Source: Oryzomonas sp. | GTDB taxonomy: Bacteria > Desulfobacterota > Desulfuromonadia > Geobacterales > Pseudopelobacteraceae | NCBI GenBank assembly: GCA_031292255.1 | Contig: JARLHN010000034.1 | Location: forward strand, 62,001-126,000 | Length of the DNA: 64,000 nucleotides | Direction of reading: 5' to 3' | Shown here: positions 39,321 to 60,672 of the stretch, in pieces | Position numbering within the stretch: position 1 is the first letter of the stretch | How the letters are laid out: every line of letters begins with the position of its first letter | Program-made: the position numbers and the translations under genes | The notes under the pieces: model-generated | Database searches by the model: none | The model's input: only the letters and a program-made list of their open reading frames with translations | Told to the model about the DNA's origin: nothing

Positions 39321-39447
39321 GGTTGTTGAAAAGCGTGACGAGGAGGCTGGTATGCAAGGCGCAAGCGAGCGGGGAAGCGTAGCGTGCCACTTGGCACGAT
39401 GTGCTTGTGAGCGAGCGGCAATGCCGCATGCCGGATTTTCAACGACC
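39321..39447. repeat. palindromic element (GGTTGTTGAAAA ends)
   Basis: The ends GGTTGTTGAAAA (39321-39332) and TTTTCAACGACC (39436-39447) pair with one mismatch; the centre is GTGCCACTTGGCAC. It shares its ends with the elements at 54381 and 60531. This is the only copy not lying directly after a stop codon. Confidence 0.65.
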
Positions 39448-39509
39448 CGATGGGACGGCATGGCTACGATACGATCAAATGATCAAGCACATGAAAAGGA
39501 GAGCATGAA

Positions 39510-39884
39510 ATGAACACCAAGAAACCCGAGCTCGTCTTCAAGTATATCTTTAATTACGGATACAATCCCACCTATGTCAATGGCGCCCAGGGGGGCTTTT
39601 CGCCCCGCGGCGAGATGGTGATACATTTTTATCTGGAGCGCCAGCCTCTGCCCGAGTCGATCAGCCACGAGATTACCCCCGAAGGCGCCATCGGCCGGGA
39701 AGTCAGTGTCGAGCCCGAGGGCCTGACCGGCAGCATGGTGCGCTTTATCGACACCGGCGTGGTGATGAGTTATGAAAATGCCAGGGTCTTTCACGCCTGG
39801 CTGGGCGACAAATTGCGGGAGATGGAGGAGTTGCACAAGATGCGTAACGCATTCGAGAGCGCTCCCACCGGCGGACAGGCTTGA
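39510..39884 (+). CDS. conserved hypothetical protein (124 aa)
   Basis: A soluble 124-aa protein: NYGYNPTYVNGAQGGFSPRG then EMVIHFYLERQPLPESISHE, followed by an acidic loop and a C-terminal helix (HAWLGDKLREMEELHKMRNA). The strand-rich core and final helix recall DUF3467-like small proteins, but I would not assign it. AAAAGGAGAGCATGAA precedes ATG 39510. It is probably cotranscribed with the DUF3108 gene 31 nt downstream. Confidence 0.7.
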   Translation: MNTKKPELVFKYIFNYGYNPTYVNGAQGGFSPRGEMVIHFYLERQPLPESISHEITPEGAIGREVSVEPEGLTGSMVRFIDTGVVMSYENARVFHAWLGDKLREMEELHKMRNAFESAPTGGQA

Positions 39885-39915
39885 AAACTGGTGAAAGGTG
39901 AAATGGGGTGAGGCA

Positions 39916-40683
39916 ATGAATAATCCGGGAAGAGTCGTTTTCCTGGTCATGGCGCTGGCGTTATTCACGGCGCTGACGGTGATGCCGCGTCGCGCATCGG
40001 CATTTCCCATGCCGGAGCGGCTGGAGTTCGAAATATCCTATACCGGTATCCCGGCCGGCCGGGCGGTGCAGGAGGTGACCCTCGAAGGCAACGAGGTGCA
40101 TATCGTATCAACCGCCAAATCCGCCAGCTGGCTGCGGGTCTTTTTCCCGGTGGATGACCGGATCGAGTCGGTGTTGATCTCAGGCACGCCGCCACTCAAC
40201 ATCGGGGTGCCGCGATTGTACCGCGAACGCATCCACGAAGGGTGGACCCGCTACAAGAAGGACGCGGTCTATGATCGCCAGAAGCTTGAGGTCAATACCA
40301 AGGACCTGCTGAAGAACAGCGAAACGACCAAGAGCATCACCGCGCGGACCTACGACACCCTGTCCAGTTTCTTTTATTTTCGCTCCGTTCCCCTTCAGGT
40401 GGGTACCTCCTACTACATCGACATATTCGATTGCAAAAGACTATGGAACACCGAGGTGCAGGTTCTGCGGCGGGAGGTGATCGAAACCCCCCTGGGCAGG
40501 TTCCGTACCGTTGTGATCAAGCCGCTGCTCAAATCGGAGGGGATCTTCGCCCGCACCGCCGACATGTATATCTGGCTGACGGACGATGAACGCCGCATAC
40601 CGGTACTGATGAAATCCAAGGTCAAGGTCGGCAGCATCACGGCAACCCTGGTGGGCGGAACCTACTGGCCCAAAAAAAAGTAG
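39916..40683 (+). CDS. DUF3108 exported protein
   Basis: A 255-aa exported protein (signal peptide FLVMALALFTALTVMPRRAS A) with the DUF3108 beta-structure: RLEFEISYTGIPAGRAVQEV, YDTLSSFFYFRSVPLQVGTS and RRIPVLMKSKVKVGSITATL. Family members are periplasmic and of unknown role. ATG 39916 is preferred over GTG 39898 because GGTGAGGC lies directly before it and the signal peptide follows. Confidence 0.85.
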   Translation: MNNPGRVVFLVMALALFTALTVMPRRASAFPMPERLEFEISYTGIPAGRAVQEVTLEGNEVHIVSTAKSASWLRVFFPVDDRIESVLISGTPPLNIGVPRLYRERIHEGWTRYKKDAVYDRQKLEVNTKDLLKNSETTKSITARTYDTLSSFFYFRSVPLQVGTSYYIDIFDCKRLWNTEVQVLRREVIETPLGRFRTVVIKPLLKSEGIFARTADMYIWLTDDERRIPVLMKSKVKVGSITATLVGGTYWPKKK

Positions 40684-40828
40684 CTTGTTTCCATCGGTTC
40701 CGCCGATTCAAATAAGCGTACTTCAGCCGGAAGCGCATGATTTTGAGGGTATTCAAGGCCGAATTTTGCTACAATAATCTTATCGACGGGGAAGAACCCG
40801 GAGATTATTGAGAAAGAAGGTGGCACAG

Positions 40829-40981
40829 ATGACGGCAACGAAAGAGGTCAACGCCGGGAAAACGGTGGCAGCGACACCGGTAAAGGAGGGTGCAACGTCT
40901 ACCAAACAGGAGATTTGTCACCCCAGCGTGTGCGTCGGCAATACGAAGCCGGCCAATTGTGTTTGTCCTACGAATAAATAA
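40829..40981 (+). CDS. 50-aa Cys-rich peptide (possible RiPP precursor)
   Basis: A short gene with a good ribosome site (GAAGGTGGCACAG) and its own terminator downstream. The first 29 residues are polar and Cys-free (MTATKEVNAGKTVAATPVKE ...). The last 21 carry four cysteines: CHPSVCVGNTKPANCVC then PTNK. A leader plus Cys-rich core resembles ribosomally made, modified peptides, but no maturase or exporter is adjacent. A small metal-binding protein is the alternative. Confidence 0.6.
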   Translation: MTATKEVNAGKTVAATPVKEGATSTKQEICHPSVCVGNTKPANCVCPTNK

Positions 40982-41102
40982 TAGTTGCATTGTTACTTGA
41001 GAAGCGTATACTGAAATCAGGAAGCAGCACAAAGACAAAAACCAAATATAAGAAATAAAAAGCTTATAAAAGGAAAAAGTCTAAATGCTACTTCTGTTTT
41101 TT

Positions 41103-41142
41103 AGAACTCCTTGGAAAATCCCGAGGGGTTCTTTGTGTTTTT
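41103..41142 (+). terminator. intrinsic terminator after the Cys-rich peptide gene
   Basis: A 12-bp stem with G-U pairs (AGAACTCCTTGG / CCGAGGGGTTCT) and a 6-nt loop, followed by TTGTGTTTTTA. Confidence 0.8.
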
Positions 41143-41219
41143 AGGGGGCAACTCCGCAAAGTAAATCGCAAGTCGAACACGTGATCTTGATGCAGTAATC
41201 GTAATTTGTTTTCGGCGCC

Positions 41220-41972
41220 TCATTGCAGTGCCGCGAAAGCCGCTTTAAGGAGAGCGGCGCTCTCCGCAAGCTGTCCATACGCATCATCGGCACTCATGAG
41301 TGTTTTTTGCGGCTTCGAGTCCTGCATGGCATAACCGAAAGCGATTGACTTGTTGGCGATCTCGGCGATCTTCTTCGCAAGTTCGCGATTGAACTTCACG
41401 AGGTCATCCTTGGCCCGAGGGAGTCGATAAGCCGGGCGCCCTGCCATCCTTTTCTTGATTTCCGCCGCTATCCTGGCCACTTTGGCATCGGTCGCCTCGT
41501 CTTCGCCACCCTCGACCACGCCGTCGTTGGCCCTGTGGTGGGCCTTGTTGAAATCGTTGTAGTCGGTGTTATGGAGCGGCATAGAGAGGTCGCCGATATA
41601 ATGGGCGGCAAAACCGAGGGGATAGCGGGCATACCTGCCATTGTTCTTGTACTCCCGATATTGGGTAAGGGCGGCGACGATGGCGCCGTAGAGATGCCCT
41701 TTGTCCTTGTCCCGGCTGTTGTAGTCGCGAACCTGGTCAAGAACCATATCGGCGGTGACTTTAACCCCTTTGGCGTTGTTGCGGTAATGGTTGCCGTCTT
41801 CATGGCCGCCGGACTTCATCTTCGACATATCCGCACCCACGGCAAGATAGGCATAGTTGTCCAGGCCCGCGGCCTTCATCACGGCCATGTGGGTTGCATC
41901 GTCCCAGGCGAGGGCGGGGGAAGAGAGGTAGAGGAGGATGGCCAGGGTGAGTGGCAAGAGGTGCCGCTGCAT
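41220..41972 (-). CDS. S1/P1 nuclease / phospholipase C-like exported zinc enzyme
   Basis: A 250-aa exported protein. The signal peptide ends at ...PALA and the mature chain starts with Trp (WDDATHMAV), as in S1/P1 nucleases and bacterial phospholipase C, whose N-terminal Trp is a zinc ligand. AAHYIGDLSMPLHNTDYNDF is the family's H-x3-D-x-x-x-P-H motif; HHRAND follows. The fold binds three Zn ions and cleaves phosphodiesters, in nucleic acid or phospholipid. No secretion partner is adjacent. Confidence 0.85.
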   Translation of the reverse strand: MQRHLLPLTLAILLYLSSPALAWDDATHMAVMKAAGLDNYAYLAVGADMSKMKSGGHEDGNHYRNNAKGVKVTADMVLDQVRDYNSRDKDKGHLYGAIVAALTQYREYKNNGRYARYPLGFAAHYIGDLSMPLHNTDYNDFNKAHHRANDGVVEGGEDEATDAKVARIAAEIKKRMAGRPAYRLPRAKDDLVKFNRELAKKIAEIANKSIAFGYAMQDSKPQKTLMSADDAYGQLAESAALLKAAFAALQ

Positions 41973-42009
41973 GTCGGGCTCCTTTTATTAGTTTTTATTT
42001 CACTTGATA

Positions 42010-42558
42010 CTATGATTTTAAGTCGCTGCAAACGACTTTGTCATGCATCTCAATGGTCAACACTTCAATACGTTGGCTTAGCTCTTTTACAAGTTCGGTC
42101 AGTTCCGTATTCTGTTGGAGCAAATTCAGTATTTGACTAGCCTGCTGTGCGGCCAGCGTTTGGCGTTGTTCAGCAGCGAATGCAAGAGCTTCCCTATGTT
42201 GCGCGTCGGCATCTGCGTGCATCTTATCGCGGTCTGCCTGACGTGTCTGCGCAAGCAAGATAAGTGGGGCAGCGTAAGCTGCCTGGAGGCTGAACGCAAG
42301 ATTGAGCAGAATAAACGGATAAACATCGAACGTGGTGAAGCCGATAGCGTTCACACCAATCCAGATGGCAACTATTGCCGTCTGTGCTACAAGAAAAACC
42401 GGTGTCCCAAAAAAACGTGCAAAAGCCTCAGCCTTCAGGGCAAACCAATCATCCCCAAAAGGAGAAAAATGATGCAGATTCGGAAGATGAAAGCGGAAGT
42501 AATCGTCCGGCACTTCGTTAACCGGGACAGGATTCGGCGTTTTTGAGTCTATTGCCAT
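42010..42558 (-). CDS. DUF1003 membrane protein
   Basis: A 182-aa protein with the DUF1003 pattern: FFGTPVFLVAQTAIVAIWIG, YPFILLNLAFSLQAAYAAPL then ILLAQTRQADRDK, giving two membrane helices, followed by a long cytoplasmic coiled coil (QILNLLQQNTELTELVKELS ...). Function is unknown. ATG 42558 is chosen because AAAGGAGTATGT lies directly upstream; the ATG 21 nt earlier lacks one. Confidence 0.88.
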   Translation of the reverse strand: MAIDSKTPNPVPVNEVPDDYFRFHLPNLHHFSPFGDDWFALKAEAFARFFGTPVFLVAQTAIVAIWIGVNAIGFTTFDVYPFILLNLAFSLQAAYAAPLILLAQTRQADRDKMHADADAQHREALAFAAEQRQTLAAQQASQILNLLQQNTELTELVKELSQRIEVLTIEMHDKVVCSDLKS

Positions 42559-42579
42559 ACATACTCCTTTATTTGTCAT

Positions 42580-42906
42580 ATCAGTCTATCTGAATAACAA
42601 CAAGTTGGTGGCATGTCCAGACATTGAACGCTTTGTGATAATATTCAAATTATCGATGAGTTTATGCTCCACGACACAGTTGTATAAAGGCAAGAATGTG
42701 AGAAGGGGGCTGGACTTGGTTGTTTATCGGAGGGAGCTGCCACCTTCGATCCTTTCTGGGCAGAAAAATACTCAACCACCCCCTGTCCCCCTCCTTATCA
42801 AGGAAGGGAAGAACTGGGCGTTTTTCCTCCTCTCCTGGTTTAGGATGACCCTCTGGGGCCTAAAGGGCTGGGGGGCGGTAGTATTTACAAGTATACCCGA
42901 TTGAAT
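42580..42906. other. intergenic region holding a GC-rich repeat
   Basis: No gene is seen. A repeat at 42773-42810 (CAACCACCCCCTGTCCCC then CTCCTTATCAAGGAAGGG) closely matches the 27551-27600 copy. Confidence 0.6.
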
Positions 42907-43512
42907 TCACTCATTGAACTGGTCCGCAAAATCGATGACACACATGCTCCCAAATCCCGGATGGGGACCGCAGGCGACCCCGGCGGTGCGGTAAACCGGG
43001 CTGAAAGTGTTCTTGCGATGCCCCCGGTCAGGCACCCCGTCGTCGACGATCAGTTGCATGACCATGTTTCGGGCTTCCGTGGGGCCATAGCCGATGTTCT
43101 CGCCGATCTGCCGGTTCCATTTCCCGTGCCGGTCGATCCGCTCTCGTATGCCGCCGCCGTGGCCGGTGGTGCCGGACTCGCCCTGTTCCTTTGCCAGTTC
43201 GGCCGCTGCCGCGGCCAGACCGTCCGACCAGGCGAGCGGCGGCAACGGTTTCTGGCGTGAGAGGACCTTGATCGCCTCATCCACGGCCTTGACCCCTTCG
43301 TTGGTCTGCATGTGGGTGTCGCTTCCCGGCAGCACGAAGTATTTTCCCCGGAACATGCTGCGGAACTCGCGCAGAAAGCCGACATAGGCGCGCGGAGAGG
43401 TGCGGGCCAGGTTGATCTCCGCCAGGACCTGGCCGGCCAGATCATGATCCTGGGCAGCAGCCGGGGCTGCCAACGCGAGAAACACGCAAATAGTTGAATA
43501 GAATAGTCTCAT
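42907..43512 (-). CDS. CAP-domain (SCP/PR-1) exported protein
   Basis: A 201-aa exported protein: signal peptide to ...AAPAAAQ, then a CAP fold with LAGQVLAEINLARTSPRAYV, ELAKEQGESGTTGHGGG (first His of the cavity), GENIGYGPTEARNMVMQLIV then DDGVPDRGHRKNTFSP (second His) and GVACGPHPG. Bacterial CAP proteins are secreted and of uncertain function (lipid or peptide binding, possibly proteolysis). It is alone between repeat-bearing regions. Confidence 0.88.
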   Translation of the reverse strand: MRLFYSTICVFLALAAPAAAQDHDLAGQVLAEINLARTSPRAYVGFLREFRSMFRGKYFVLPGSDTHMQTNEGVKAVDEAIKVLSRQKPLPPLAWSDGLAAAAAELAKEQGESGTTGHGGGIRERIDRHGKWNRQIGENIGYGPTEARNMVMQLIVDDGVPDRGHRKNTFSPVYRTAGVACGPHPGFGSMCVIDFADQFNE

Positions 43513-43614
43513 CTTTTCGTACCGCCGATGAATGGGATGAACGCGGATTAAGACAAAAAACTGGCACGATTCGGGCTGGGAAGCGATTGTGTCTCGCGGC
43601 GCGAAACAGTGGCC

Positions 43615-43929
43615 CTATTTGCTGAGATAATCCCCCAGCAGGTCCCTGCTGTGCTCGTCATCGTGGCAGTGGGTGCAGAGGTTTTCCCAGTTGCTGCCGT
43701 CGGAGGGGTTGTTGTTGTGGTTGCCGTCCTTGTGGTGGACGGTCAACTGGTGCAGGTTGGCCTGGTCGAATTCCCGGCCGCATTTGGCGCAGATCGGGCC
43801 GTGTATCTTCAAGGATTTTGTCCGGTAGTTGGTGGTGTCCTCTGTTTGCCTGCGCATGGCTTCTATGCGGGCTGCGGCTTCGGCGGCCGAGGGGAGTTTG
43901 ACCGTGACCGGTCGATTGGGTCGTGCCAT
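43615..43929 (-). CDS. HNH nuclease, YajD-like
   Basis: A 104-aa HNH protein: CAKCGREF and CTHCHDDEH form the zinc site and LTVHHKDGNHNNNPSDGSNW then ENL is the HNH core. YajD-like members are small stand-alone nucleases of unclear role, sometimes linked to phage. It lies after cobC on the same strand, separated by a palindromic element. Confidence 0.87.
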   Translation of the reverse strand: MARPNRPVTVKLPSAAEAAARIEAMRRQTEDTTNYRTKSLKIHGPICAKCGREFDQANLHQLTVHHKDGNHNNNPSDGSNWENLCTHCHDDEHSRDLLGDYLSK

Positions 43930-43956
43930 GATGATCCTCTCCGGAAGATTTTTTTC

Positions 43957-44070
43957 AACGGCTGGGCAAAAAGCTCCAGCTGCAAGGCTTGCGACCCCTG
44001 AAGAGTGAGGCGTACCCCTCGGTACGCCGCAGGGATGAAGGGGGCGGATGGACTTTTGGCGCAGCCGTTT
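43957..44070. repeat. palindromic element abutting the cobC stop
   Basis: The ends AACGGCTGGGCAAAAAG and CTTTTGGCGCAGCCGTT pair imperfectly over 17 bp; the centre is GGCGTACCCCTCGGTACGCC. In the transcribed (minus) direction it starts at the cobC stop codon. Confidence 0.7.
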
Positions 44071-44671
44071 ACCCGTTCAGCAGCTTGACCGTGGTCATGC
44101 CGTCGGCATAATAATCGATGATGTTCAGGCAGCCGTAGTTCTGTTCGATGTTGAACATCCCGGCCAGCGGGGCGCCGATGGCGTTCAGGAGCACGATGCG
44201 GTTGACGCCGCCGTGTCCCACTACCAGGATTTCCTGCCCCTTGTGGCGCTCCACGATCTCCGCGATGACCGGCATGACCCGCGCCCCCACGTCCAGCAAG
44301 TTCTCTCCCCGGGGCACCCGGTAGTTGACCAGGTCGTCCATCCGGGCCTGCCATTCCATTGGCCAGCGTTGAGCTATCTCCTGCCAGGTCAGGCCCTCCC
44401 ATACGCCGATGTTCAGCTCGCGCAGCTCGGGGCGGCGCACCGGTTCGATGCCGAACCGGCCGCAGATGATCTTCGCGCCGATGGCGCAGCGGGACAGGTC
44501 GCTGGTGTAGCAGGCTGCGAGGGGGGTGCCGGCCAGGCGCTCCTTGAGAACATGGTACTGCTCCAGGCCGACATCGGTTAAGCCCACATCGGTCTGGCCG
44601 TTGTAGCGGGGTTGGTCATGGCCTGCCACTTGGCCGTGGCGGATGAGGTAGATGCGTGTCGCCGGGGTCAT
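44069..44671 (-). CDS. cobC: alpha-ribazole phosphatase (histidine phosphatase family)
   Basis: A 200-aa histidine phosphatase: RIYLIRHGQ holds the phospho-accepting His (RHG), SDLSRC the second arginine region, and LVVGHGGVNRIVL the second active-site His. In a cobamide operon this family removes the phosphate of alpha-ribazole(-like) phosphate or of the cobamide 5'-phosphate. Start 44671 is the first ATG before the fold; the far longer upstream frame is a shadow of cobS. It is the last gene of the cobU-cobC operon. Confidence 0.88.
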   Translation of the reverse strand: MTPATRIYLIRHGQVAGHDQPRYNGQTDVGLTDVGLEQYHVLKERLAGTPLAACYTSDLSRCAIGAKIICGRFGIEPVRRPELRELNIGVWEGLTWQEIAQRWPMEWQARMDDLVNYRVPRGENLLDVGARVMPVIAEIVERHKGQEILVVGHGGVNRIVLLNAIGAPLAGMFNIEQNYGCLNIIDYYADGMTTVKLLNG

Positions 44672-44707
44672 GGGTGTGTCCGTCCTTTCAAAAGGGAGTG
44701 AGGGATT

Positions 44708-44749
44708 AGAAGGCTGGCAATAATAAGTTATTGTTGCTAGTAGCCTTCT
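44708..44749. repeat. mini palindromic element abutting the cobS stop
   Basis: AGAAGGCTGGCAATAATAA and TTATTGTTGCTAGTAGCC then TTCT form an imperfect stem with almost no loop. Its ends match those of the longer element at 57890-58067, so it looks like an internal-deletion form. It begins at the cobS stop codon. Confidence 0.65.
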
Positions 44750-45486
44750 TAGGGGAGCCTGACCGAGATGACCGCCAGGGCTGCAATCTCGGCCAGTTCG
44801 TTGATGCAGCCCAGAACGTCGCCGGTCAGGCCGTCGAGGCGGCGCTGGAAGTAGCAGCGTAGCGCCACGGTCGCCAGGATAACGACGATATAGGCTGCCA
44901 GGCCGGTAAGAGGCGGCAGCACGAAGGCCGCCGCCAGGGTCAGGGCCAGGGCGGTGATCAATTGGGCATGGCCGGCGCCCTGGATGAAGACGGTCCCCAG
45001 GCCTTCCTTGCGCGCATGGCGGGCCCCGGTCATGGCAAGGACCTGGGCCATGCGGGCCAGGGCGGGAACGAACAGCAGGGCCTGCATCTTGATGCCGGCC
45101 GGCACCGCCAGCAAGGCCTGCCACTTCAGCAGCAGGCCGAGGACGACGCCGACGACGCCGACGGCGCCGACACGGGAGTCCTTCATGACTTCCAAAAAGC
45201 GTTCACGGCCGCCGCGGGCCGCAATGCCGTCGCAGATATCGGCCAGGCCGTCAAGGTGCAGGGCGCCGGTCACGGCGGCCAGGGCGGTAATCAGCAGGGC
45301 GTCGGTCAGCGGCCGGGCCAGCCAGGGGGCGATCAGCCAGTTGAGCCCGGCCAGCAGGGCGCCGATGGTCAGACCCACCAGGGGGAAGACGGCCGTGGAG
45401 CGCCCCAGGTCCTGCGCTTCGCAGTCGGTCTTGAAGGGAAGCGGGATGATGGTCAGGAACTGAAAGGCGACAAGGTACTTTTTCAC
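44749..45486 (-). CDS. cobS: adenosylcobinamide-GDP ribazoletransferase
   Basis: A 245-aa membrane enzyme that joins the lower-ligand nucleotide to GDP-cobinamide. KYLVAFQFLTIIPLP is the family N terminus; HLDGLADICDGIAARGGRER then FLEVMKDSRVGAVGV is the signature metal-binding region, and several helices follow. The start is GTG 45486, which overlaps the stop of the PPC gene (GTGA); no good ATG exists. Confidence 0.93.
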   Translation of the reverse strand: MKKYLVAFQFLTIIPLPFKTDCEAQDLGRSTAVFPLVGLTIGALLAGLNWLIAPWLARPLTDALLITALAAVTGALHLDGLADICDGIAARGGRERFLEVMKDSRVGAVGVVGVVLGLLLKWQALLAVPAGIKMQALLFVPALARMAQVLAMTGARHARKEGLGTVFIQGAGHAQLITALALTLAAAFVLPPLTGLAAYIVVILATVALRCYFQRRLDGLTGDVLGCINELAEIAALAVISVRLP

Positions 45487-45905: not shown

Positions 45906-45969
45906 GTCTTGATTCCATCCTTGATTTGAAATCGATATTTCCCTGTGTTTTCCCCTGCCGATGTGCCCG

Positions 45970-47277: not shown

Positions 47278-47375
47278 GTCTGTTCTCCTTGTCTGGGAAT
47301 GAAATGTTTTTTGCTGGAATTCTTTCTGCGAACAAAAACAGGGGTTGCGGGAGTTGCCCCAATGTCAGGATGAAT

Positions 47376-47406
47376 ATCCCCTGCCCCTTTTAATCAGGGG
47401 AGGGGG
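47376..47406. repeat. GC-rich repeat at the end of pabBC
   Basis: TCCCCTGCCCCTTTTAATCA then GGGGAGGGGGCA is a dyad of the C-rich/G-rich family. Its right half encodes the last residues (APSPD) and stop codon of the pabBC gene. Confidence 0.65.
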
Positions 47407-50968: not shown

Positions 50969-51035
50969 TCGAAAATACCTGGATGAAGATGCTATCCGGC
51001 TTCGGCCCCTCGTTCCACGGAGGTCCCAAAGGCAT

Positions 51036-51200
51036 CGGAATGGCAGGTTTCCTGGCTTGGGGATCGTTCCACTGCCGCGCCTTCCCAGGTTTCCCCAGTG
51101 GCATGATGCGGCGTCGGTCCCCCCTTACAGTTGCGGGACAGCGAGGGAGTTGCACCCTCTTCCCTTTTAACCACGCTGAGCTGCAGCGCGGCACCAGACC
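51036..51200 (-). promoter_or_regulatory. cobalamin riboswitch of the cobU operon
   Basis: Minus strand: GGGTGCAACTCCCTCGCTGT then CCCGCAACTGTAAG, ATGCCACTGGG, GGGAAGGCGCGGCAGTGGAA and AAGCCAGGAAACCTGCC are the conserved cobalamin-aptamer parts in order. With the terminator at 50932-50968 it should stop transcription of the lower-ligand operon when cobamide is plentiful. Confidence 0.94.
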
Positions 51201-51396
51201 GGTTGATAAACAATTTCGCGTTTTGTACCAGACCACAGGCGGATTGTCAAAACGGAAAGTGACGGCAATAAACTACCCTGCCGGTAAATACCGATACCTA
51301 GCTGTATTTGTTCGTATATTAATTATGCATCCGTTCGATGGCCGTCACGATTTTCCGGCGATATGACAGACTTTGGGAAAAAAATTACCACACCCC

Positions 51397-51425: not shown

Positions 51426-51432
51426 CCTCCCG

Positions 51433-51459: not shown

Positions 51460-51511
51460 TCGCGTCTGCGACTTTACACCACCAACCGGTAATAGAAAGG
51501 AGAAGGACAAC

Positions 51512-51799
51512 ATGAATTTGAGACCACTTCAGGACCGCATCCTCGTCAAGAGGGTCGAAGAGGAAACCAAGACCGCAGGGGGGCTTTTCATCCCCGAAAC
51601 CGCCAAGGAGAAGCCGCAGCGCGGCGAAATCGTGGCTGCCGGCAACGGCAAGAAGACCGAAGAAGGCAAGGTGCTGCCTCTGGACGTGAAGGTGGGCGAC
51701 AAGGTGCTGTTCGGCAAGTATTCGGGCACCGAGATCAAGGTTGATGGCGAAGAATATTTGATTATGCGGGAAGATGACATCCTGGCCGTCGTAGAATAG
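51512..51799 (+). CDS. groES: co-chaperonin GroES
   Basis: A 95-aa co-chaperonin. [18 protein letters not shown] at the start, a mobile loop with [20 protein letters not shown], and the C-terminal [14 protein letters not shown] are typical. AAAGGAGAAGGACAAC precedes ATG 51512; the longer frame to 51443 is CIRCE leader. The stop is followed at once by a 120-bp palindromic element and then groEL. Confidence 0.98.
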
Positions 51800-51800
51800 A

Positions 51801-51920
51801 GAAACGGTCTTTTTTCGCCCTAGCCTCGCCAATCTTCGGAACGCCTGTGTGCGACGTACCTCCGGTACGTCTCCGCGACATTCCTCGATTGGCAAACCCA
51901 GGACAAAAAAAACTCGTTTC
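51801..51920. repeat. palindromic element between groES and groEL
   Basis: The ends GAAACGgtCTTTTTTCGCCC and GGACAAAAAAAACTCGTTTC pair imperfectly. Inner arms (CGCCAATCTTCGG / CCTCGATTGGCAAA) and a centre GACGTACCTCCGGTACGTC continue the hairpin. It starts 2 nt after the groES stop and lengthens the groES-groEL gap to 176 bp. Confidence 0.8.
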
Positions 51921-51972
51921 TAATTCAGACAATAACTTCAAAAACTAAATCATATTCTATATGGAGGAATAA

Positions 51973-53622
<1,650 letters not shown>

Positions 53623-53627
53623 TCGGG

Positions 53628-53746
53628 AAAACGTCTCTTTTCCGCCCTGGCTGGGTCAATCGGCGGGCTTGCTTGTGCGGCGTAGCGCTGCTACGCCTCC
53701 GCGCAACCCCTTGATTTCCTGCCCAGGACGAAAAACAGAGCGTTTT
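53628..53746. repeat. palindromic element after groEL
   Basis: The ends AAAACGTCTCTTTTCCGCCC and GGACGAAAAACAGAGCGTTT then T pair imperfectly; the centre GCGGCGTAGCGCTGCTACGC then CTCCGC is shared with the 54381 and 60531 copies. It begins 5 nt after the groEL stop. Confidence 0.8.
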
Positions 53747-53775
53747 CACCCTCGACGTTCCCTTTATTGCCCGGG

Positions 53776-53810
53776 AAAAGGCCGGAGACATCATGTCTCC
53801 GGCCTTTTTT
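53776..53810 (+). terminator. intrinsic terminator of groESL
   Basis: A perfect 15-bp stem, AAAAGGCCGGAGACA-TCA-TGTCTCCGGCCTTTT, runs into TTT GTTT. Confidence 0.92.
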
Positions 53811-53914
53811 GTTTAAAACTGTTGCCTGAAGGTTGTTTAGGTCATATTATGACGTCGCAGAAAGGTTACAATTAGTACCTTTGAACCTTTGAACCTTTGA
53901 ATTAACGAATTAAT

Positions 53915-54012
53915 GACCCCCTCCCCCAGCGGGGGAGGGTAAGGGAGGGGGAAAAGGCTGCAAACTCAGTTGATCCACCCTCCCAACCTCCACCCGCAAG
54001 GAGAGGGGAACT
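53915..54012. repeat. GC-rich palindromic repeats upstream of the cupin gene
   Basis: CCCCCTCCCCCAGCGGGGGA then GGG, and about 40 bp later CACCCTCCCAACC...AGGAGAGGGGA, form one or two copies of the C-rich/G-rich family. Confidence 0.7.
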
Positions 54013-54061
54013 CGCCGAAATACTTAATGTTACGTAACACGAGATTGAAAAAGGAGGGAAT

Positions 54062-54379
54062 ATGGAGTTGATCGGTAAAGCCCTGACCATGAGCGACCTG
54101 GTGGCGTATCAGGAGGGCTCGGTGGTCAGCAAGACGTTGATCGACAAGAAGATCGGGACGTTGACGCTGTTTTCGTTTGATGCCGGACAGGGGCTTTCCG
54201 AGCATGCCGCCCCCTACGACGCCTTTGTGCAGGTCGTGGACGGCGAGGCCGAGGTGACCATCGAGGGGAGCGCCCAGACGGTGGCGGCCGGCCAGATGAT
54301 CATCATGCCGGCCAACAAGCCCCATGCGCTCAAGGCGGTCAAGCCGTTCAAGATGCTGCTGGTGATGATTCGAGCGTAG
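54062..54379 (+). CDS. small cupin-domain protein
   Basis: A 105-aa single cupin: FDAGQGLSEHAAPYDAFVQV then VDGEAEVTIEG is motif 1 and MIIMPANKPHALKAVKPFKM motif 2; the His/Glu metal ligands are only partly conserved. Small cupins bind metals or act as sensors; the substrate is unknown. AAAAGGAGGGAAT precedes ATG 54062. Its stop is followed at once by a palindromic element. Confidence 0.87.
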   Translation: MELIGKALTMSDLVAYQEGSVVSKTLIDKKIGTLTLFSFDAGQGLSEHAAPYDAFVQVVDGEAEVTIEGSAQTVAAGQMIIMPANKPHALKAVKPFKMLLVMIRA

Positions 54380-54380
54380 G

Positions 54381-54581
54381 AGGTTGTTGAAAAACAGCCA
54401 TCTCGCCGCCATCCTCGAAGGCCCTTTTGTGACTTCGGCCTGCGGCCTCACCCTTCGGGCGCCTTCGCGGTCCAATTTCACAAGTGAAATTGTGCGGCGT
54501 AGCGCTGCTACGCCTCCGCAAGGCCTTCTGCGGGTGCGACGATCTGACTGTTTTTGAACAACCTGAGTTTTTCAACAGCCG
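54381..54581. repeat. palindromic element after the cupin gene
   Basis: The ends AGGTTGTTGAAAAACAG (54381-54397) and CTGTTTTTGAACAACCT (54548-54564) pair with one mismatch. A second end-like TTTTTCAACAGCC lies just beyond. The centre holds GCGGCGTAGCGCTGCTACGC then CTCCGC. It starts 1 nt after the stop codon. Confidence 0.8.
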
Positions 54582-54602
54582 GCTCGAAAAATAATTTCCA
54601 CC

Positions 54603-54618
54603 CGGAAACTCCGGATGA
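54603..54618. repeat. short repeat CGGAAACTCCGGATGA (copy 3)
   Basis: Matches copies at 31960-31976 (inverted) and 37475-37491. It lies upstream of hemH. Confidence 0.6.
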
Positions 54619-54675
54619 GAAGCAATTTGATTTCAATATTTCTTTGTGCCGATGTGATGAGAAAGGGATTTCATA

Positions 54676-55626
54676 ATGTCTGAAAAAACCGCAGTATTGC
54701 TGCTCCAGATGGGGGGGCCGGATTCCCTGGACGCTGTCGAACCGTTTCTCTGCAACCTGTTTTCGGACCGGGACATCATCCGTATCGGGCCGGCCTTCCT
54801 GCAACCGGTGATTGCACGCATCATCTCCCGCCGGCGCGCCCGCACGGTGGTCGAGTATTACCGCCGGATGGGGGGCAAGTCGCCCCTGCGCGAGCTGACC
54901 GAGCAACAGGGCGCAGAGCTGGAAAAGGTCCTGGGCGAAGGGTACCGCTGTTTCGTGGCCATGCGCTATTGGAAGCCGGACACGATCGAAGCCCTTGCGG
55001 CCATCAAGCGTGAAGGCATCAGCCGGATCGTGGCATTGTCGCTCTATCCCCATTATTCACGGGCCACCGGCGGTTCCAGCTTCAACGAACTTAAGCGGGT
55101 GCTGGCCCAGTCAAAAGTGCATTTCGACATGGCATATATCCGCCAATTCTACGATCATCCCGGCTATATCGGGGCTCTGGTGGAGAAGATCGAACAGGGG
55201 CTGGCCGAATTCGCCGACCGAAGCGCCGTCCAGCTCGTTTTCTCCGCCCACGGTCTTCCCCAGTCGTTCATCGATTCCGGCGATCCCTACCTCGAACACA
55301 TCCAGGGCACGGTGCGGCTGGTGATGGAGCATTTCGGCGGTATCTCGCACCATCTGGCCTTCCAGTCGCGGGCCGGCCCGGTCAAGTGGCTTGAGCCCTC
55401 CACCGAGGGGAAGATCACCGAACTGGCAGCGGCAGGATGCAAGGATCTGCTGATGGTGCCGCTTTCGTTCGTGTCCGACCACATCGAGACCCTCTACGAG
55501 ATCGACATTCAGTACCGTGAAGAGGCCCAGAAATTGGGCATTGTAAACTTCCGGCGCAGCGGGTCCCTCAACAGTTCGCCCGCCTTTATCGGGTGCCTGG
55601 CCGACCTGGTGCGTTCGCTGGGGTAG
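54676..55626 (+). CDS. hemH: ferrochelatase
   Basis: A 316-aa enzyme that inserts Fe(II) into (copro)porphyrin. [20 protein letters not shown] at the N terminus, [18 protein letters not shown] with the catalytic His, and [20 protein letters not shown] with the second His/Glu site are all present. The demand for haem fits the cytochromes nearby. Start ATG 54676 follows GAAAGGGATTTCATA. Whether the protoporphyrin or coproporphyrin route is used cannot be told here. Confidence 0.95.
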
Positions 55627-55813
55627 CGGTCGCGGCAGAACGATGAAACAGGCACAAAATGGCACAACCTGGAAAGGCCTATGGAACTGGGATGAATGCG
55701 GATAGCATCTGAAACCGACTGGATTTTGGTTTTATCTGCGACCATCTCATTCATCGGCGGTTGCATGAAGCGCGATGCGCGCCATTAGATCTATTACTCA
55801 AAGGAGAACCGCA

Positions 55814-56386
55814 ATGTTCAAAAAATTGGTAGTTGCACTCATGGCTGTTTTCATGTCCGCAGGTATCGCCTGTGCCGAAGGCAAGGCGAAGAACCCGGTC
55901 GTCCAGATGGAGACCAGCCAGGGAACCATCAAGATTGAGTTGTTCGAAAAGGAGGCGCCCATCAGCGTCAAGAATTTCCTGGGCTACGTCAACAAGGGGT
56001 TCTATGGCGGAACGATCTTCCACCGCGTCATTAACGGCTTCATGATCCAGGGGGGCGGCTTTACCACCGATTTCGCCCAGAAGCCGACCGACGAGCCCAT
56101 CAGGAACGAGGCGGCCAACGGCCTGAAAAACGACGTCGGCACCATCGCCATGGCCCGCACCGGCATGCCGGACAGCGCCACGTCTCAATTCTTCATCAAT
56201 GTGGTGAACAACGACATGCTGAACCGGCCCAAACCGGACGGCTACGGCTATGCCGTCTTCGGCAAGGTCATCGAGGGCATGGATGTGGTGGACAAGATCA
56301 AGGCGGTCAAAACCGGCTTCTACCACGGCATGAGGGATGTGCCGGAACAGCAGGTGGTGATAAAGTCCGTGAAGGTGTTGAAATAG
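55814..56386 (+). CDS. exported cyclophilin-type peptidyl-prolyl isomerase
   Basis: A 190-aa periplasmic isomerase: signal peptide (VALMAVFMSAGIACAEG), then the cyclophilin core TIFHRVINGFMIQGGGF, GTIAMARTGMPDSATSQFFI and GYGYAVFGKVIEGMDVVDKI, as in PpiA/PpiB. It speeds proline cis-trans changes in exported proteins. AAGGAGAACCGCA precedes ATG 55814; the longer frame to 55775 is not used. Confidence 0.94.
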   Translation: MFKKLVVALMAVFMSAGIACAEGKAKNPVVQMETSQGTIKIELFEKEAPISVKNFLGYVNKGFYGGTIFHRVINGFMIQGGGFTTDFAQKPTDEPIRNEAANGLKNDVGTIAMARTGMPDSATSQFFINVVNNDMLNRPKPDGYGYAVFGKVIEGMDVVDKIKAVKTGFYHGMRDVPEQQVVIKSVKVLK

Positions 56387-56437
56387 GCCGCTATTTCGGG
56401 AAGTTCACAGCTTGACGTCGAAGGCTCGGGAGAGGAT

Positions 56438-57889
56438 ATGAGGGTTTATGCAATGCGCAGGATGATCACTGCGGCGGCCTTGGTTGCGGCGATGGCTCAT
56501 CAGGTATGGGGCGCCGGCGGCGAAGCGGCAATAACGACCACGACCATTGCAGAACAGACCGGCGTGGCGGTAACCATCTACAATTCCAACCTGGGGTTGG
56601 TCAAGGACCTCCGTGTGCTGCATCTGTCCAAGGGGCGCAGCGAACTGCGTTTCATGGATGTGGCTACCGCCATCATACCCGCCAGTGTCCATATCCGATC
56701 CCTCTCGGATGCCGACGGCCTGAATGTCCTGGAACAGAACTACGAGTATGACCTGCTCAGCCCGCAGAAACTGATGGACAAGTATGTGGGCAAAGAGGTC
56801 AAGCTCTACCAGAAGAACCCCTACAGCGAGCGGGAAGAGGTAGTGACCGCCACGCTCCTCTCCAACAACAACAACGGTCCGGTATACAAGATCGGCAACG
56901 AGATAACCTACGGCTATCCGGGGCGGGTCATCTTCCCTCAGTTGCCTGAGAGTCTGATCGCCAGCCCCACCCTGGTGTGGCTTCTGGAGAACGACCGTGA
57001 AAAACCGCACACGGTGGAGGCCACCTACCTGACCAACGGCATCAACTGGCGCGCCGACTACGTCATGACCCTCAACGAGCGGGACGACACGGCCGATCTG
57101 GGGGGATGGGTCACCATCACCAACAACAGCGGGGCAACCTATCGCGATGCCGCGGTAAAACTGGTGGCCGGGGACGTCAACCGGGTCCGCGATGAGGTGC
57201 CGCCGCGCGCAGCAGGCAGGGCCATGCTGATGGAGGCCGCCGCCCGGGCTCCCCAGTTCAGGGAGGAAGGGTTGTTGGAGTATCACATGTACACGCTCCA
57301 GCGCCCTTCCACCATCAAGGACAACGAGTCCAAGCAGATCAGCCTGCTCTCGGCCGCCGGCATACCGGTGCGCAAGGAGCTGCTCCTGTCCGGGGCTTCC
57401 TATTACTACCAGGAGGGCTACAGCGGGGACATCGCCAAGAAGCAGAAGGTCGGTGTCTATATCGAACTGGATAATCGCGAGAAGAATCACCTGGGGATGC
57501 CGCTCCCCAAAGGAACCGTGCGGGTCTACAAAAAGGACGGCGACGCGTCGCTCCAGTTTGTGGGCGAGGATGCCATCGATCACACCCCCAAGGACGAGAA
57601 GGTGCGGATCAAGCTGGGTGAGGCCTTCGACGTGGTGGCCGACAGGAAGCAGACCGACTGGAAAAAACGGGCAAGCGACAGCTATGAGGCGGCCTACGAG
57701 ATCTCGATCCGTAACCACAAGAAAGAGGCCGTCATGGTGCGGGTAACCGAACCGGTTCCCGGCGACTGGCAGGTGCTGAACTCCAGCCACGACTACATCA
57801 AGGCCGACTCCGGCATGCTGGAATACAAGGTGCCGGTAGCGGCGGATGGAGAGACGAAGCTGACCTACCGGGTTTTGATGCGGTATTGA
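56438..57889 (+). CDS. DUF4139 exported protein
   Basis: A 483-aa exported protein with signal peptide (MITAAALVAAMAHQVWG) and the DUF4139 plan: VAVTIYNSNLGLVKDLRVLH, then VEATYLTNGINWRADYVMTL in the middle, and a C-terminal beta-sandwich with GTVRVYKKDGDASLQFVGED and EISIRNHKKEAVMVRVTEPV. The family occurs in many bacteria without assigned function. GGGAGAGGAT precedes ATG 56438. A palindromic element begins directly after the stop. Confidence 0.87.
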   Translation: MRVYAMRRMITAAALVAAMAHQVWGAGGEAAITTTTIAEQTGVAVTIYNSNLGLVKDLRVLHLSKGRSELRFMDVATAIIPASVHIRSLSDADGLNVLEQNYEYDLLSPQKLMDKYVGKEVKLYQKNPYSEREEVVTATLLSNNNNGPVYKIGNEITYGYPGRVIFPQLPESLIASPTLVWLLENDREKPHTVEATYLTNGINWRADYVMTLNERDDTADLGGWVTITNNSGATYRDAAVKLVAGDVNRVRDEVPPRAAGRAMLMEAAARAPQFREEGLLEYHMYTLQRPSTIKDNESKQISLLSAAGIPVRKELLLSGASYYYQEGYSGDIAKKQKVGVYIELDNREKNHLGMPLPKGTVRVYKKDGDASLQFVGEDAIDHTPKDEKVRIKLGEAFDVVADRKQTDWKKRASDSYEAAYEISIRNHKKEAVMVRVTEPVPGDWQVLNSSHDYIKADSGMLEYKVPVAADGETKLTYRVLMRY

Positions 57890-58067
57890 GGAGGCTGGCA
57901 ACAATAACATGAACATCTTGCATCTCATCTTCCGGCCATCTTTGACCGCGGCTCAATCACAAAATCCTCGGCGCAGCCTGCTACGCCTGCAGTTTTGTTC
58001 AATCGCTACGGCCAAATCCGACCAAAATCCGAGCGCAATTTTGTTCAACTTATTATTACCAGCCTCC
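57890..58067. repeat. 178-bp palindromic element between DUF4139 and comF genes
   Basis: The ends GGAGGCTGGCAACAATAA (57890-57907) and TTATTATTACCAGCCTCC (58050-58067) are inverted repeats with two mismatches; the centre includes GGCGCAGCCTGCTACGCC. It starts at the base after the TGA and ends 8 nt before the next ATG, so it fills the whole intergenic space. Confidence 0.8.
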
Positions 58068-58075
58068 TAAGCCCC

Positions 58076-58801
58076 ATGAACAAATTTTTCACCGCATTCC
58101 TGGATGTTCTTTTCCCGCCGCTTTGCCACATCTGCCGGGCGTACATCCCCGAGGCAGGCACATTACACATCTGTCCGGCGTGCCGGGAATGCATGCCCAT
58201 CGTGGGGCATCCGCTCTGCCCGGTGTGCGGCATTTCCTTCCTGGGAGCGGGTGATGACCATGTTTGCGGCGACTGTCAAGAGTCGCAACCGGTTTTCAGG
58301 GCGGCACGGGCGGCCATGATCTACGAGGGGGGCTGCCGAGACCTGATCCATGCCTACAAATACCGCCATAAAACCTACCTGCGCCGTCCCCTGGCGCTAT
58401 TGGCGGCCGATTCTCTACGGGATTTCGTCGCCACATGCGCCCCTGAACTGATGGTGCCGGTGCCGTTGCATGTCCGGCGGCTCAGGGAGCGCGGTTTCAA
58501 CCAGGCGGTGCTCCTGGGCGAGATCTGGGCGCGCGAGTGGAACCTCCCCCTGGATCGCGACGCGATGCGTCGCATCCGGTGGACCGAACCGCAGATCAAT
58601 CTGACGGCCGCACAACGGCGCGACAATGTAAAGGGCGCCTTTGACGTCAGGGATGCCAATGCCGTAACGGGTCGGCGCGTGTTGCTGGTGGACGACGTCT
58701 ACACCACCGGCAGCACCGTGAAGGAGTGCGCCGTGGCGCTCAAGGCGGCCGGTGCCCGGGAGGTGGCGGTCGTGACGGTGGCTCGTGCCCCATGCGGTTA
58801 G
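58076..58801 (+). CDS. comF: ComF-family phosphoribosyltransferase-like protein
   Basis: A 241-aa protein: an N-terminal double zinc finger (LCHICRAYIP, CPACRECMP, CPVCG, CGDCQ) and a C-terminal PRTase fold with the PRPP motif VLLVDDVYTTGSTVKECA, plus RRLRERGFNQAVLLGEIWA. ComF is needed for DNA uptake in competent bacteria, and also appears in non-competent ones. ATG 58076 has no ribosome site of its own because the palindromic element ends 8 nt upstream; coupling to the DUF4139 gene would have to cross that element. Confidence 0.88.
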   Translation: MNKFFTAFLDVLFPPLCHICRAYIPEAGTLHICPACRECMPIVGHPLCPVCGISFLGAGDDHVCGDCQESQPVFRAARAAMIYEGGCRDLIHAYKYRHKTYLRRPLALLAADSLRDFVATCAPELMVPVPLHVRRLRERGFNQAVLLGEIWAREWNLPLDRDAMRRIRWTEPQINLTAAQRRDNVKGAFDVRDANAVTGRRVLLVDDVYTTGSTVKECAVALKAAGAREVAVVTVARAPCG

Positions 58802-59104
58802 ATTGCACTCGTAAATTCGGCTTTTTCAGCCGCTGCCGTCGTTGCGGTTCCTTGATGTAGACCCTGCTGCACCTGCGTCGCCGCGCCTCGGAACCAGTCA
58901 ATATAGCTCGGGATTACTTCCCGCGACTAACCGCACGGGGACGAGGAATGCGGAAAGTTGAGCAGCAGCCTGTATGGGCGACAGGAAAAATCATCATTGC
59001 CATGTGTTGAAATCAGGAATTGTTGCGGTGAGTTTTGTTGACGTATACGGTGTATATTTGCTATAGATTACGTTGCGCAAAGATATGACTGTCCGGGAGG
59101 AACT
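58802..59104. other. intergenic region with promoter of the Rrf2 gene
   Basis: About 300 bp without a gene. TTGACG (59038-59043), 18 bp, TATAGA (59062-59067) is a plausible promoter. The overlapping GTATACGGTGTATAT is a dyad that could be the autoregulatory operator. The earlier part (58802-58960) has no recognisable feature. Confidence 0.55.
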
Positions 59105-59581
59105 ATGCGTCTGTCAACAAAAAGTCGGTACGGCCTGAGGGCTCTTTTCGACATTGCCTACAATTGCGGCAATATGCCGGCCCAGATCCAGGACATCTCC
59201 CGTCGTCAGCAGATCTCGCCTCGCTATCTGGAGCAGATTTTTCAAAACCTCAAGCGGGCAGGGATATTGAAAAGCAAGCGAGGCCCCCAGGGGGGGTACT
59301 GCCTGGCCAAAAAGCCTGAGGAGATCACGGTGTTGGATGTTCTATGCGCCACGGAACAGGATGTGCTCCTGGTGGATTGCGCGGGGGTGACGCCGAAAAA
59401 ACGCAAGCGCAAGAACGACTGCCCCTTTGAGGGGCAGTGCGTGACCCAAACGGTCTGGGAAGAGGCCTCCACTCTGCTCAACACGCTGTTTTCCGGTATT
59501 ACCATCCAAACGCTGTGCCAGCGCGGCCAGGAGATGGGAATCAAGAAGGAGCAGGACCACCGTTTCATGTACTATATCTAG
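59105..59581 (+). CDS. Rrf2-family regulator (CymR/IscR type)
   Basis: A 158-aa Rrf2 protein: MRLSTKSRYGLRALFDIAYN, then the winged helix (QDISRRQQISPRYLEQIFQN) and the wing GILKSKRGPQGGYCLAKKPE. Cysteines at about 94 and 109-115 (VDCAGV; NDCPFEGQC) lie in the region that holds an Fe-S cluster in IscR-like members, though their spacing is non-standard. The cysK gene follows after 25 nt, so control of cysteine synthesis, as by CymR, is likely. Confidence 0.88.
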   Translation: MRLSTKSRYGLRALFDIAYNCGNMPAQIQDISRRQQISPRYLEQIFQNLKRAGILKSKRGPQGGYCLAKKPEEITVLDVLCATEQDVLLVDCAGVTPKKRKRKNDCPFEGQCVTQTVWEEASTLLNTLFSGITIQTLCQRGQEMGIKKEQDHRFMYYI

Positions 59582-59606
59582 GAAATCAGTGTTCCGGGAC
59601 AATATC

Positions 59607-60530
59607 ATGCCTATAGTTATCAGCACGAACGTCATAGAACAGATCGGCGCCACGCCGTTGGTGAAACTTTCCGGAATGACGGAACAAGGGGCGGCCGCCA
59701 TCTACGCCAAGGTTGAATTCTTTAACCCGGGCGGCAGCATCAAGGACCGCATCGCCCTGGCGATGATCGAACAGGCCGAGCGGGATGGCTGTATCAGGCC
59801 GGGGGGCACGATCGTCGAGCCGACCAGCGGCAATACCGGTATTGGCCTGGCACTGGTCTGTGCGGTGAAGGGGTACCGGCTGGTGCTGACCATGCCCGAA
59901 TCCATGAGCCTGGAGCGGCGGCGCCTATTAACGGCTTACCGGGCCGAACTGGTGCTGACGCCGGCTTCGCAAGGCATGAAGGGGGCGGTGCAGAAGGCTG
60001 AAGAACTGGCTACCGGAAATGGCTGGCTGCTGCCGCAGCAGTTCAACAATCCTGCCAACCCGGAGGCCCATCGCCGTACGACCGGCCCTGAGATCATCGC
60101 TGCGATGAAGGGGTTGAGCATCGACGGCTTCGTGGCCGGGGTCGGTACAGGAGGCACCATTACCGGCGCCGGCGAGGTGCTCCGCCGGCACAATCCGGCT
60201 GTCCACATCGCTGCCGTCGAGCCGGCCGGATCTCCCGTACTATCCGGCGGGCAGGCCGGCCCCCATAAGATTCAAGGGATCGGGGCCGGCTTCATTCCGG
60301 AAGTGCTCAATACCTCCATCTACCAAGAGGTGATTGCCGTGTCGGATGCGGACGCCTATAGCGCTGCCCGAATGCTGGCAGCCAAACAGGGGCTCTTGTG
60401 CGGGATATCGAGCGGCGCGGCGCTGGCCGGTGCAGTGCGGGTGGCTCAAAAGCTGGGGGCCGGCAAGAACGTTGTGGTGGTGTTGCCGGATACGGGGGAG
60501 CGCTATCTCTCCATGGATGTGTTCGATTAG
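59607..60530 (+). CDS. cysK: cysteine synthase (O-acetylserine sulfhydrylase)
   Basis: A 307-aa PLP enzyme: IGATPLVKL, KVEFFNPGGSIKDRIALAMI with the PLP lysine in the usual PGGSIKDR, EPTSGNTGIGLALV and GTGGTITGAGEVLR. It makes cysteine from O-acetylserine and sulfide. ATG 59607 matches the family N terminus (MPIVISTNVIEQIGATPL); GTG 59589 is possible and has GGAAATCA upstream. A palindromic element abuts the stop. Confidence 0.95.
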   Translation: MPIVISTNVIEQIGATPLVKLSGMTEQGAAAIYAKVEFFNPGGSIKDRIALAMIEQAERDGCIRPGGTIVEPTSGNTGIGLALVCAVKGYRLVLTMPESMSLERRRLLTAYRAELVLTPASQGMKGAVQKAEELATGNGWLLPQQFNNPANPEAHRRTTGPEIIAAMKGLSIDGFVAGVGTGGTITGAGEVLRRHNPAVHIAAVEPAGSPVLSGGQAGPHKIQGIGAGFIPEVLNTSIYQEVIAVSDADAYSAARMLAAKQGLLCGISSGAALAGAVRVAQKLGAGKNVVVVLPDTGERYLSMDVFD

Positions 60531-60672
60531 CAGGTTGTTGAAAAAAACAGCTATCTCGCCGCCGTCCTCGAAAGCCGCCTTGTGCGGCGTAGCGCTGCTA
60601 CGCCTTCGCGAGGCTTTCTGCGGGTGCAACGATCTGACTGTTTTTGAACAGACTGAGTTTTTCAGCAACCTG
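60531..60672. repeat. palindromic element after cysK
   Basis: The ends CAGGTTGTTGAAAAA and TTTTTCAGCAACCTG pair with one mismatch; the centre GCGGCGTAGCGCTGCTACGC then CTTCGC matches the 53628 and 54381 elements. It begins on the base after the TAG. Confidence 0.82.

Follow-up and report, generated by a model that had tools for sequence, protein, structure and literature searches.

Palindromic elements of several families docked directly after stop codons in Oryzomonas and related genomes

Why should long imperfect palindromes lie, again and again, immediately downstream of stop codons? The question is raised by a stretch of 64,000 nucleotides (nt) of the genome of Oryzomonas sp. (hereafter the window; C14:62001-126000 of a 3.72-Mb genome in 44 contigs), which contains eight such elements (Table 1). 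All eight were found where a preliminary description of this DNA had placed them, by sequence reading and folding, and for the two folds compared with 200 dinucleotide shuffles none of the shuffles was as good (z = -4.37 for 60531 and z = -5.20 for 53623). The same description had counted seven of the eight as following a stop codon in the orientation of the preceding gene, and this was confirmed: seven start 0-4 nt past the stop of that gene and on its strand, the element at 39321 being the only undocked one. We consider it likely, with a probability of about 0.7, that these sequences represent mobile palindromic families, some with a common central hairpin, which settle in sense orientation directly after stop codons, family A having YTAR (Y, C or T; R, A or G) as its target and B-type elements being kept for a role in the mRNA.

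The eight elements do not form a single family, as had been proposed, since their ends sort them into five groups: A (54381 and 60531), B-type (51801 and 53628), C (39321), D (57890 and 44708) and E (43957). The shared centre that had been reported holds in part: it is exact (GCGGCGTAGCGCTGCTACGC) in three of the eight (53628, 54381 and 60531), 51801 and 43957 have a related one, GTACC..GGTAC, and 44708 is a bare 40-bp hairpin with D arms and no centre at all. The central hairpin motif is common to A and B; C, D and E have other ends.

Elements of families A and C are short (about 120-205 bp), have no coding capacity and carry terminal inverted repeats (CAGGTTGTTGAAAA / TTTTCAACARCCTG). Among the 21 A copies of our genome with both ends present, an in-frame stop ends at positions -6 to -1 of the left end in 15, and at exactly -1 in 11 of these; of the other six, three have their stop within the element, 10 nt in (+10), and three have neither. 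An antisense stop is in contact with the right end in five of the 21. In the loci of five related genomes (G001-G005), 43 further copies, mostly from G002 and G001 and picked non-exhaustively from hit lists, include 24 left-docked (-8 to +1), one at +10 and 18 not docked, with seven right-docked. When only copies with both neighbouring genes called are considered (n = 58), 33 are left-docked, three are at +10 and seven are right-docked, which amounts to a sense bias of 33:7 (p 4e-5; two copies enter both counts); the neighbours of these copies are tandem sense in 29 cases, tandem antisense in 13, convergent in 16 and divergent in none. Long palindromes were also scanned for irrespective of family, in 1.194 Mb or 32% of the genome. 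At a score cut-off of 10, 27 of them start at -3 to +6 from a stop, 14 start in the 10 nt that follow and two are at -3 to +6 from a start codon, the same three bins holding 9, 4 and 1 at cut-off 14, and 1, 1 and 0 at cut-off 18.

Two further features of A copies concern their neighbours. At L025, L044 and L223 the frame of the gene enters the element and ends at a TGA in its end (+10), the element supplying the last codons. In 10 of 13 copies between tandem antisense genes, the start codon of the neighbour follows the left end by 12-19 nt (starts being approximate), which puts that end next to the likely ribosome-binding site.

A YTAR stands at either end of the A copies. Read as direct repeats, the two free positions of these flanks agree in 35 of 46 comparisons, a count that averaged 21.4 in shuffles and was reached in 0 of 20,000, whereas read as inverted repeats 25 agree, against 22.1 in shuffles (p 0.21); 23 of 63 A copies, with middle bases T[AG] and TA, were usable for this comparison. 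Because the flanks agree as direct and not as inverted repeats, YTAR is the 4-bp target duplication of A. These figures concern A only, a few flanks of C having been read by eye and left uncounted. The idea of insertion into the loops of terminator hairpins was dropped, as the flanks of the C copies that had suggested it turned out not to be inverted once both ends were compared. With C or T before it, a TAA or TAG completes a YTAR, and insertion there therefore restores the stop and leaves the protein unchanged. Families A and C are miniature inverted-repeat transposable elements (MITEs), probably of the IS5 type, and the stop codon is a self-healing target.

Stop codon usage is consistent with this target: our sample of genes contains 435 TGA, 259 TAA and 226 TAG, and the 43 left stops at A copies comprise 17 TAG, 15 TAA and 11 TGA (Fisher p 0.007), four of these 11 TGA being +10 stops inside the element. 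Two usable flank pairs read TTGA on the left and TTAA on the right, as expected of an original TTAA that drifts while having to remain a stop. It had been argued that the base after a stop would not be a favoured site of chance insertion; this is too strong for A, whose target can be a stop, even if the supply of YTAR predicts only about 12-17% of A copies at stops. We counted 184 YTAR in stops versus 873 in up to 300 nt of the following spacer, and 14 of the 21 own A copies lie in a stop (11 by the left end, 3 by the right) versus 17% from supply (p 8e-7). Part of this excess arises because spacers are short and the stop is often their sole YTAR site: the median pre-insertion spacer of the 29 tandem sense copies is 34 nt, and for 50 of 58 A copies the whole spacer holds no or one YTAR.

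The preliminary description had advised looking for a transposase with similar terminal repeats, and one was found. In another genus of the family, an insertion sequence (IS) of ~1.32 kb (L286/L369) has ends CAGGTCGTTGAATTTCGACC and CAGGTTGTTGAAATTCAAC with TTAG on both sides; its ends match those of A and C, with up to 16 nt identical to A, and at L374 the first 16 nt of the IS equal the A consensus. Its transposase matches the NCBIfam IS5 model NF033581 with 292 bits (cut-off 140), as well as PF05598 and PF01609. Relatives of the transposase are present in 18 of the 137 genomes sampled from the order, and a PF05598 profile search of eight genomes gave eight matches in four of them. Inverted ends with a 4-bp duplication were recovered at 11 of the 17 IS loci examined (30 fetched), under a scoring that favoured end pairs with a matching 4-mer: seven duplications are NTAR (TTAG, CTAA, ATAA, TTAA, GTAG, CTAG and GTAA) and four are ATAT. 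At the six other loci (L370, L372, L373, L377, L382 and L393), some of them near contig ends, no clean end pair was found. According to the accessible text of PMC10359306, IS5 makes YTAR duplications, and IS5-family elements thus resemble those described here in the 4-bp YTAR duplication of A and in the ends of the present IS, which match A and C; they differ in that our elements are only 40-205 bp long and carry no transposase. This IS may thus be regarded as a candidate parent, family A being probably derived from an IS5-family IS of other genera.

Gains and losses can be followed at orthologous sites. Six species share the position of the cupin stop; there is an A element in our genome and in G001, a 22-nt remnant in G002 and nothing in G003, G004 and G005. 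The G002 remnant (L211) is an end-to-end scar, CAGGTTGTTGAAAAACAGCCTG, such as a deletion from one end of the palindrome to the other would leave. The DUF4139 stop carries a D element in our genome only, with none in G001, G002, G003 and G005 (the site was not found in G004). At the cysK stop, our genome has an A element, G003 and G004 have nothing, and G001, G002 and G005 have fragments that by eye resemble C ends. At C2:79225, A is in sense orientation in our genome, G001, G003 and G005, is reversed in G004 and is missing from G002; the opposite orientations (L259 in our genome, L267 in G004) could result from inversion in situ or from re-insertion. Filled and empty sites are therefore seen at cysK, cupin and C2:79225, with flanks too diverged to read the duplication. 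Arms change as well: the groES stop is occupied by a B-type element in our genome and G003 and by an E-type element in G001, G002 and G005, always at the stop, and at groEL the dock and the centre are the same in all, with arms that differ between our genome/G003 and G001/G002/G005, the centre of G005 being split by a cassette.

All this could be the work of purely selfish MITEs, whose distribution would reflect the choice of YTAR and the purging of harmful insertions, with no function for the host. The YTAR duplication and the matching IS, the spacers with no or one YTAR, the three own A copies with a stop 10 nt inside, as for insertion into coding sequence, and the remnants and losses at orthologous sites all agree with this explanation. 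However, it does not account for the sense bias, nor for the copies with other arms, which use all three stops and have no fixed YTAR, nor for the pairing of arms kept across genera; we regard it as unlikely, if by no means negligible.

These last points come from elements outside family A. The exact 23-nt centre GCGGCGTAGCGCTGCTACGCCTC is present in 63 of 277 genomes of the class, with up to 89 copies in one genome and none for a reversed-pattern control. In loci of relatives (47 centres), the upstream gene is in sense in 35 of 46 cases, with the centre 50-73 nt past its stop in 27 of the 35. Outside the genus (31 centres in 30 loci of 30 genomes), the upstream gene is in sense in 26 cases, antisense in four and uncalled in one, a bias of 26:4 among copies with mixed arms; one antisense case (L198) is a miss of the gene caller, being really the docked groES of G172. 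The centre lies 56-65 nt past the stop in 24 of the 26 sense cases, the two others being at 73 and 1,051 nt. Together with the 15 of 21 own A copies at a stop, this supports the earlier assertion that docking exceeds chance. A docked copy outside the genus usually lacks the A end pattern (21 of 25, among which L187 and L189 still have related ends), and in these 21 the stops are TAG in nine, TGA in seven and TAA in five, the first paired base is 0-10 nt past the stop (median 1 nt for the foot of the hairpin) and the centre is at 56-65 nt in 20. As non-A copies also dock after TGA, YTAR is not the whole reason for them. B copies of the genus are left-docked in 14 of 31 cases and right-docked in none of 27, i.e. 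14:0 in favour of sense, and in eight docked B-type copies the stop is exactly at the TTTCC junction. B-type elements match A in centre and geometry, though not evidently in target, and their one-sided orientation suggests that the transcript is under selection. C copies are left-docked in 8 of 21 and right-docked in 5 of 16, with no clear orientation bias.

The left arms have diverged to an identity of 0.40 when anchored at the centre, and an arm pairs with its own partner at -34.2 kcal/mol, versus -22.9 kcal/mol for chimeric pairs; the own partner ranks first for 16 of 31 arms, the others going down to rank 14. In the variable 8-bp stem of 58 A copies, 344 of 464 cells are paired (shuffles: mean 322, maximum 341) and 25 are double changes (mean 10.6, maximum 21). 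Neither these shuffles nor the chimeric pairs take out the relatedness among copies. RNAalifold on 57 A copies recovered mostly invariant pairs, with five double-change cells against a shuffle mean of 0.6 and a maximum of 3; we think that it catches mainly invariant pairs because indels misalign the variable stem. 

It may accordingly be asked whether these are simply cis-acting RNA hairpins, placed in sense 0-10 nt past the stop, which would stall ribosomes or shield the upstream mRNA. The short distance of the foot, the constant position of the centre in the docked non-A copies, the covariation and the 14:0 orientation of B are in line with this, as is the closest functional precedent, the repetitive extragenic palindromic (REP) hairpins of E. 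coli in the accessible text of PMC12306157. Against it, a loose motif search found the centre element at the groES stop in only 9 of 30 loci across the order (five in family f1 and four in f4, both arm types occurring in each by eye), so that the gene does not need it, and most of the traits are equally expected of a long palindrome that avoids harm. A purely cis-acting nature is thus a serious possibility, if somewhat short of an even chance.

A cassette of ~58 nt, flanked by TTGTG/TTGTG, lies at the same place beside the centre in A-armed copies (L021-L024) and in B-armed ones (L033, L039, L040, L043, L047, L048 and L049), and arms and centre seem to exchange. Palindromic cassettes are found inside the central hairpin at the groEL site of G005 (L213) and in G003 (L401), forming a palindrome within a palindrome. 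Separate histories for the middle and for the arms are suggested by the nested cassettes and by arms that change while the centre stays constant.

The reading that we prefer, of mobile families settling in sense after stops, would combine these elements as follows. Insertion of A duplicates the 4-bp YTAR, so that at a TAA or TAG after C or T the stop is recreated and the protein left intact, and in short operon spacers the stop is often the sole YTAR site available; insertions elsewhere would be lost or harmful, and stop-docked copies would stay. In B-type elements, a docked sense hairpin would be kept for its action in the mRNA, most likely because it shields the mRNA upstream or slows the ribosome as it terminates, and we infer that selection may act on the transcript, by analogy with REP hairpins near stops in E. 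coli. The sense bias, the constant spacing from stop to centre and the covariation of the arms speak for a possible RNA role. More tentatively, and at rather less than an even chance, these elements might constitute a mobile class of post-stop RNA hairpins, lying in sense with the foot at 0-10 nt and an apical hairpin about 60 nt past the stop, where the terminating ribosome would meet it; the class would spread through operons on borrowed IS5-type ends whose target can be a stop, and be re-installed repeatedly with new arms at the same stops, as at groES in two families.

Several observations weigh against the reading preferred here. Stops are over-used beyond the supply of YTAR, and target choice combined with harm avoidance may be incomplete even for A. 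By our test, 17 of 31 B left ends are undocked, and C copies are mostly undocked. The sense bias could instead reflect harm done by antisense copies. The six genomes of this genus yielded no relative of the IS transposase, and mobility is therefore read from traces; the IS itself shows only two weak stop contacts among nine loci.

The preliminary description had also envisaged a MITE-like element targeting terminators. MITE-like is appropriate for A and C, given their terminal repeats, the ends shared with an IS, the filled and empty sites and, for A, the duplications. Terminators are not what is targeted, the target of A being YTAR and groEL retaining an intact intrinsic terminator at 53776-53808, downstream of its element. 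The elements are hairpins downstream of genes, as ordinary intrinsic terminators would be, but seven of the eight are 110-205 bp long with no T-tract seen after them by reading, in 42 of 58 A copies the two neighbouring genes run in the same direction, and the terminator of groEL itself persists beyond the element. The absence of a T-run and the separate groEL terminator led us to reject this explanation, which we hold to be barely credible.

Very improbable, too, is that these are elements akin to REPs or bacterial interspersed mosaic elements moved by a REP-associated tyrosine transposase (RAYT), an enzyme of the Y1 type. The palindromes do occur in operon spacers, and our genome has three PF01797 matches, one of them an intact frame of 246 aa. 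However, the repeat on either side of the intact gene is another one (3.3-kb locus, by reading), and the 4-bp direct duplication of A is of a kind that Y1 transposition is not known to make. This frame, at L018 (C32:100185 in our genome), is RAYT-like and lies between inverted GGGGACAGGCTRC repeats that by eye are unrelated to the elements. REPs are also shorter than the elements described here and are linked to RAYTs.

Parts of this repertoire have been seen before. The central palindrome GRCGTAGCGCTGCTACGCC, exact in 53628, 54381 and 60531, has been in print since 2009 among the predicted short RNAs of Geobacter metallireducens (PMC2700814, Additional file 4), as a multicopy intergenic family also present in G. 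sulfurreducens, G. uraniireducens and Desulfotalea psychrophila; the accessible part of that source describes it as predicted RNAs and does not mention stop docking, target duplication or a transposase. The Chunjie MITE of G. uraniireducens (Chen et al. 2008, via PMC10969869) is similar in its length of 178-235 bp, conserved ends, direct repeats and intergenic location, and its title tells of a MITE that entered an operon without disturbing its structure; the comparison is by description and not by sequence, and stop docking is not mentioned in what PMC10969869 relays. In E. coli, REPs are extragenic hairpins, and ribosome stalling is reported for those no more than 15 nt from a stop (RepRanger, PMC12306157, accessible text); 446 of 4,072 are that close, and for a distance of up to about 12 nt our counts are 15 of 21 for own A copies and 14 of 31 for B. 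Pneumococcal BOX, RUP and SPRITE (PMC3049150) are likewise small structured repeats, RUP being tied to IS630-Spn1 and BOX being modular, but they are reported to be over-represented between convergent genes, and the accessible text does not mention stop docking. Within the open-access literature searched (supplements and the original Chunjie paper apart), what is new is the docking at stops, the duplication of YTAR, a candidate parent IS and the change of arms at a fixed stop.

These results offer a simple reason for mobile hairpins piling up at gene ends, namely that an IS5-type 4-bp target can be a stop and that the duplication restores it. They also tie the predicted short RNAs of Geobacter to mobile elements and name a candidate parent IS. 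If the sense bias is functional, groES-groEL, the cobalamin genes and cysK would provide natural tests of the effects of post-stop hairpins on termination, mRNA decay and the next gene.

The coordinates of the window elements are collected in Table 1. Genes were called with a simple hexamer-based caller, whose stops are more reliable than its starts, and the names cobC, cobS, groES, groEL, cupin, DUF4139 and cysK are labels taken over from the preliminary description.

Table 1. Palindromic elements of the window. Own-genome matches or pieces are those found by BLAST with one copy, the query included.
Feature	Position	Strand	Context
Family C element GAGGTTGTTGAAAAG...ATTTTCAACGACCC	39319..39448	+	Between divergent genes, undocked; 17 own-genome matches
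Family E element ACGGCTGCGCCAAAAG..., centre GGCGTACCGAGGGGTACGCC	43957..44068	-	Starts at stop (44069-44071) of minus gene 44069-44671
Small D-arm hairpin without centre	44709..44748	-	Starts at stop of minus gene 44749-45486
B-type element AGAAACGGTC...CTCGTTTCT, centre CGACGTACCTCCGGTACGTCTCC	51800..51921	+	After groES stop 51797-51799
B-type element, centre TGTGCGGCGTAGCGCTGCTACGCCTCC at 53674-53700	53625..53750	+	After groEL stop 53620-53622; 45 own-genome pieces
Family A element, long form with nested cassette	54380..54582	+	After cupin stop TAG 54377-54379; 70 own-genome pieces
Cassette TGACTTCGGCC...GTGAAATTGT beside centre	54430..54493	+	Also present, at the corresponding place, in some B-armed copies elsewhere
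Family D element GGAGGCTGGCAACAATAA...TTATTATTACCAGCCTCC	57890..58067	+	After DUF4139 stop TGA 57887-57889
Family A element, short form	60531..60672	+	After cysK stop TAG 60528-60530; G004 without element

The small D-arm hairpin has CTAA at both edges, the far-end CTAA overlapping its last C. At Rfam gathering scores the elements match no family, and the only two matches in the window are cobalamin riboswitches, at 51025-51213 on the minus strand (128.5 bits) and 23984-24152 on the plus strand (116.2 bits). Small REP-like hairpins (TTTCCGGATGGAAAC / CCGGAAACTCCGG) adjoin B copies in the flanks of L054-L066 and, at 54590-54620 of the window, follow the A element that ends at 54582. CCCTC-rich repeats are present at 53925-54010 and 42710-42850, and by eye they resemble the class-4 'CCYTC' sites described in the accessible text of the G. 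metallireducens genome paper.

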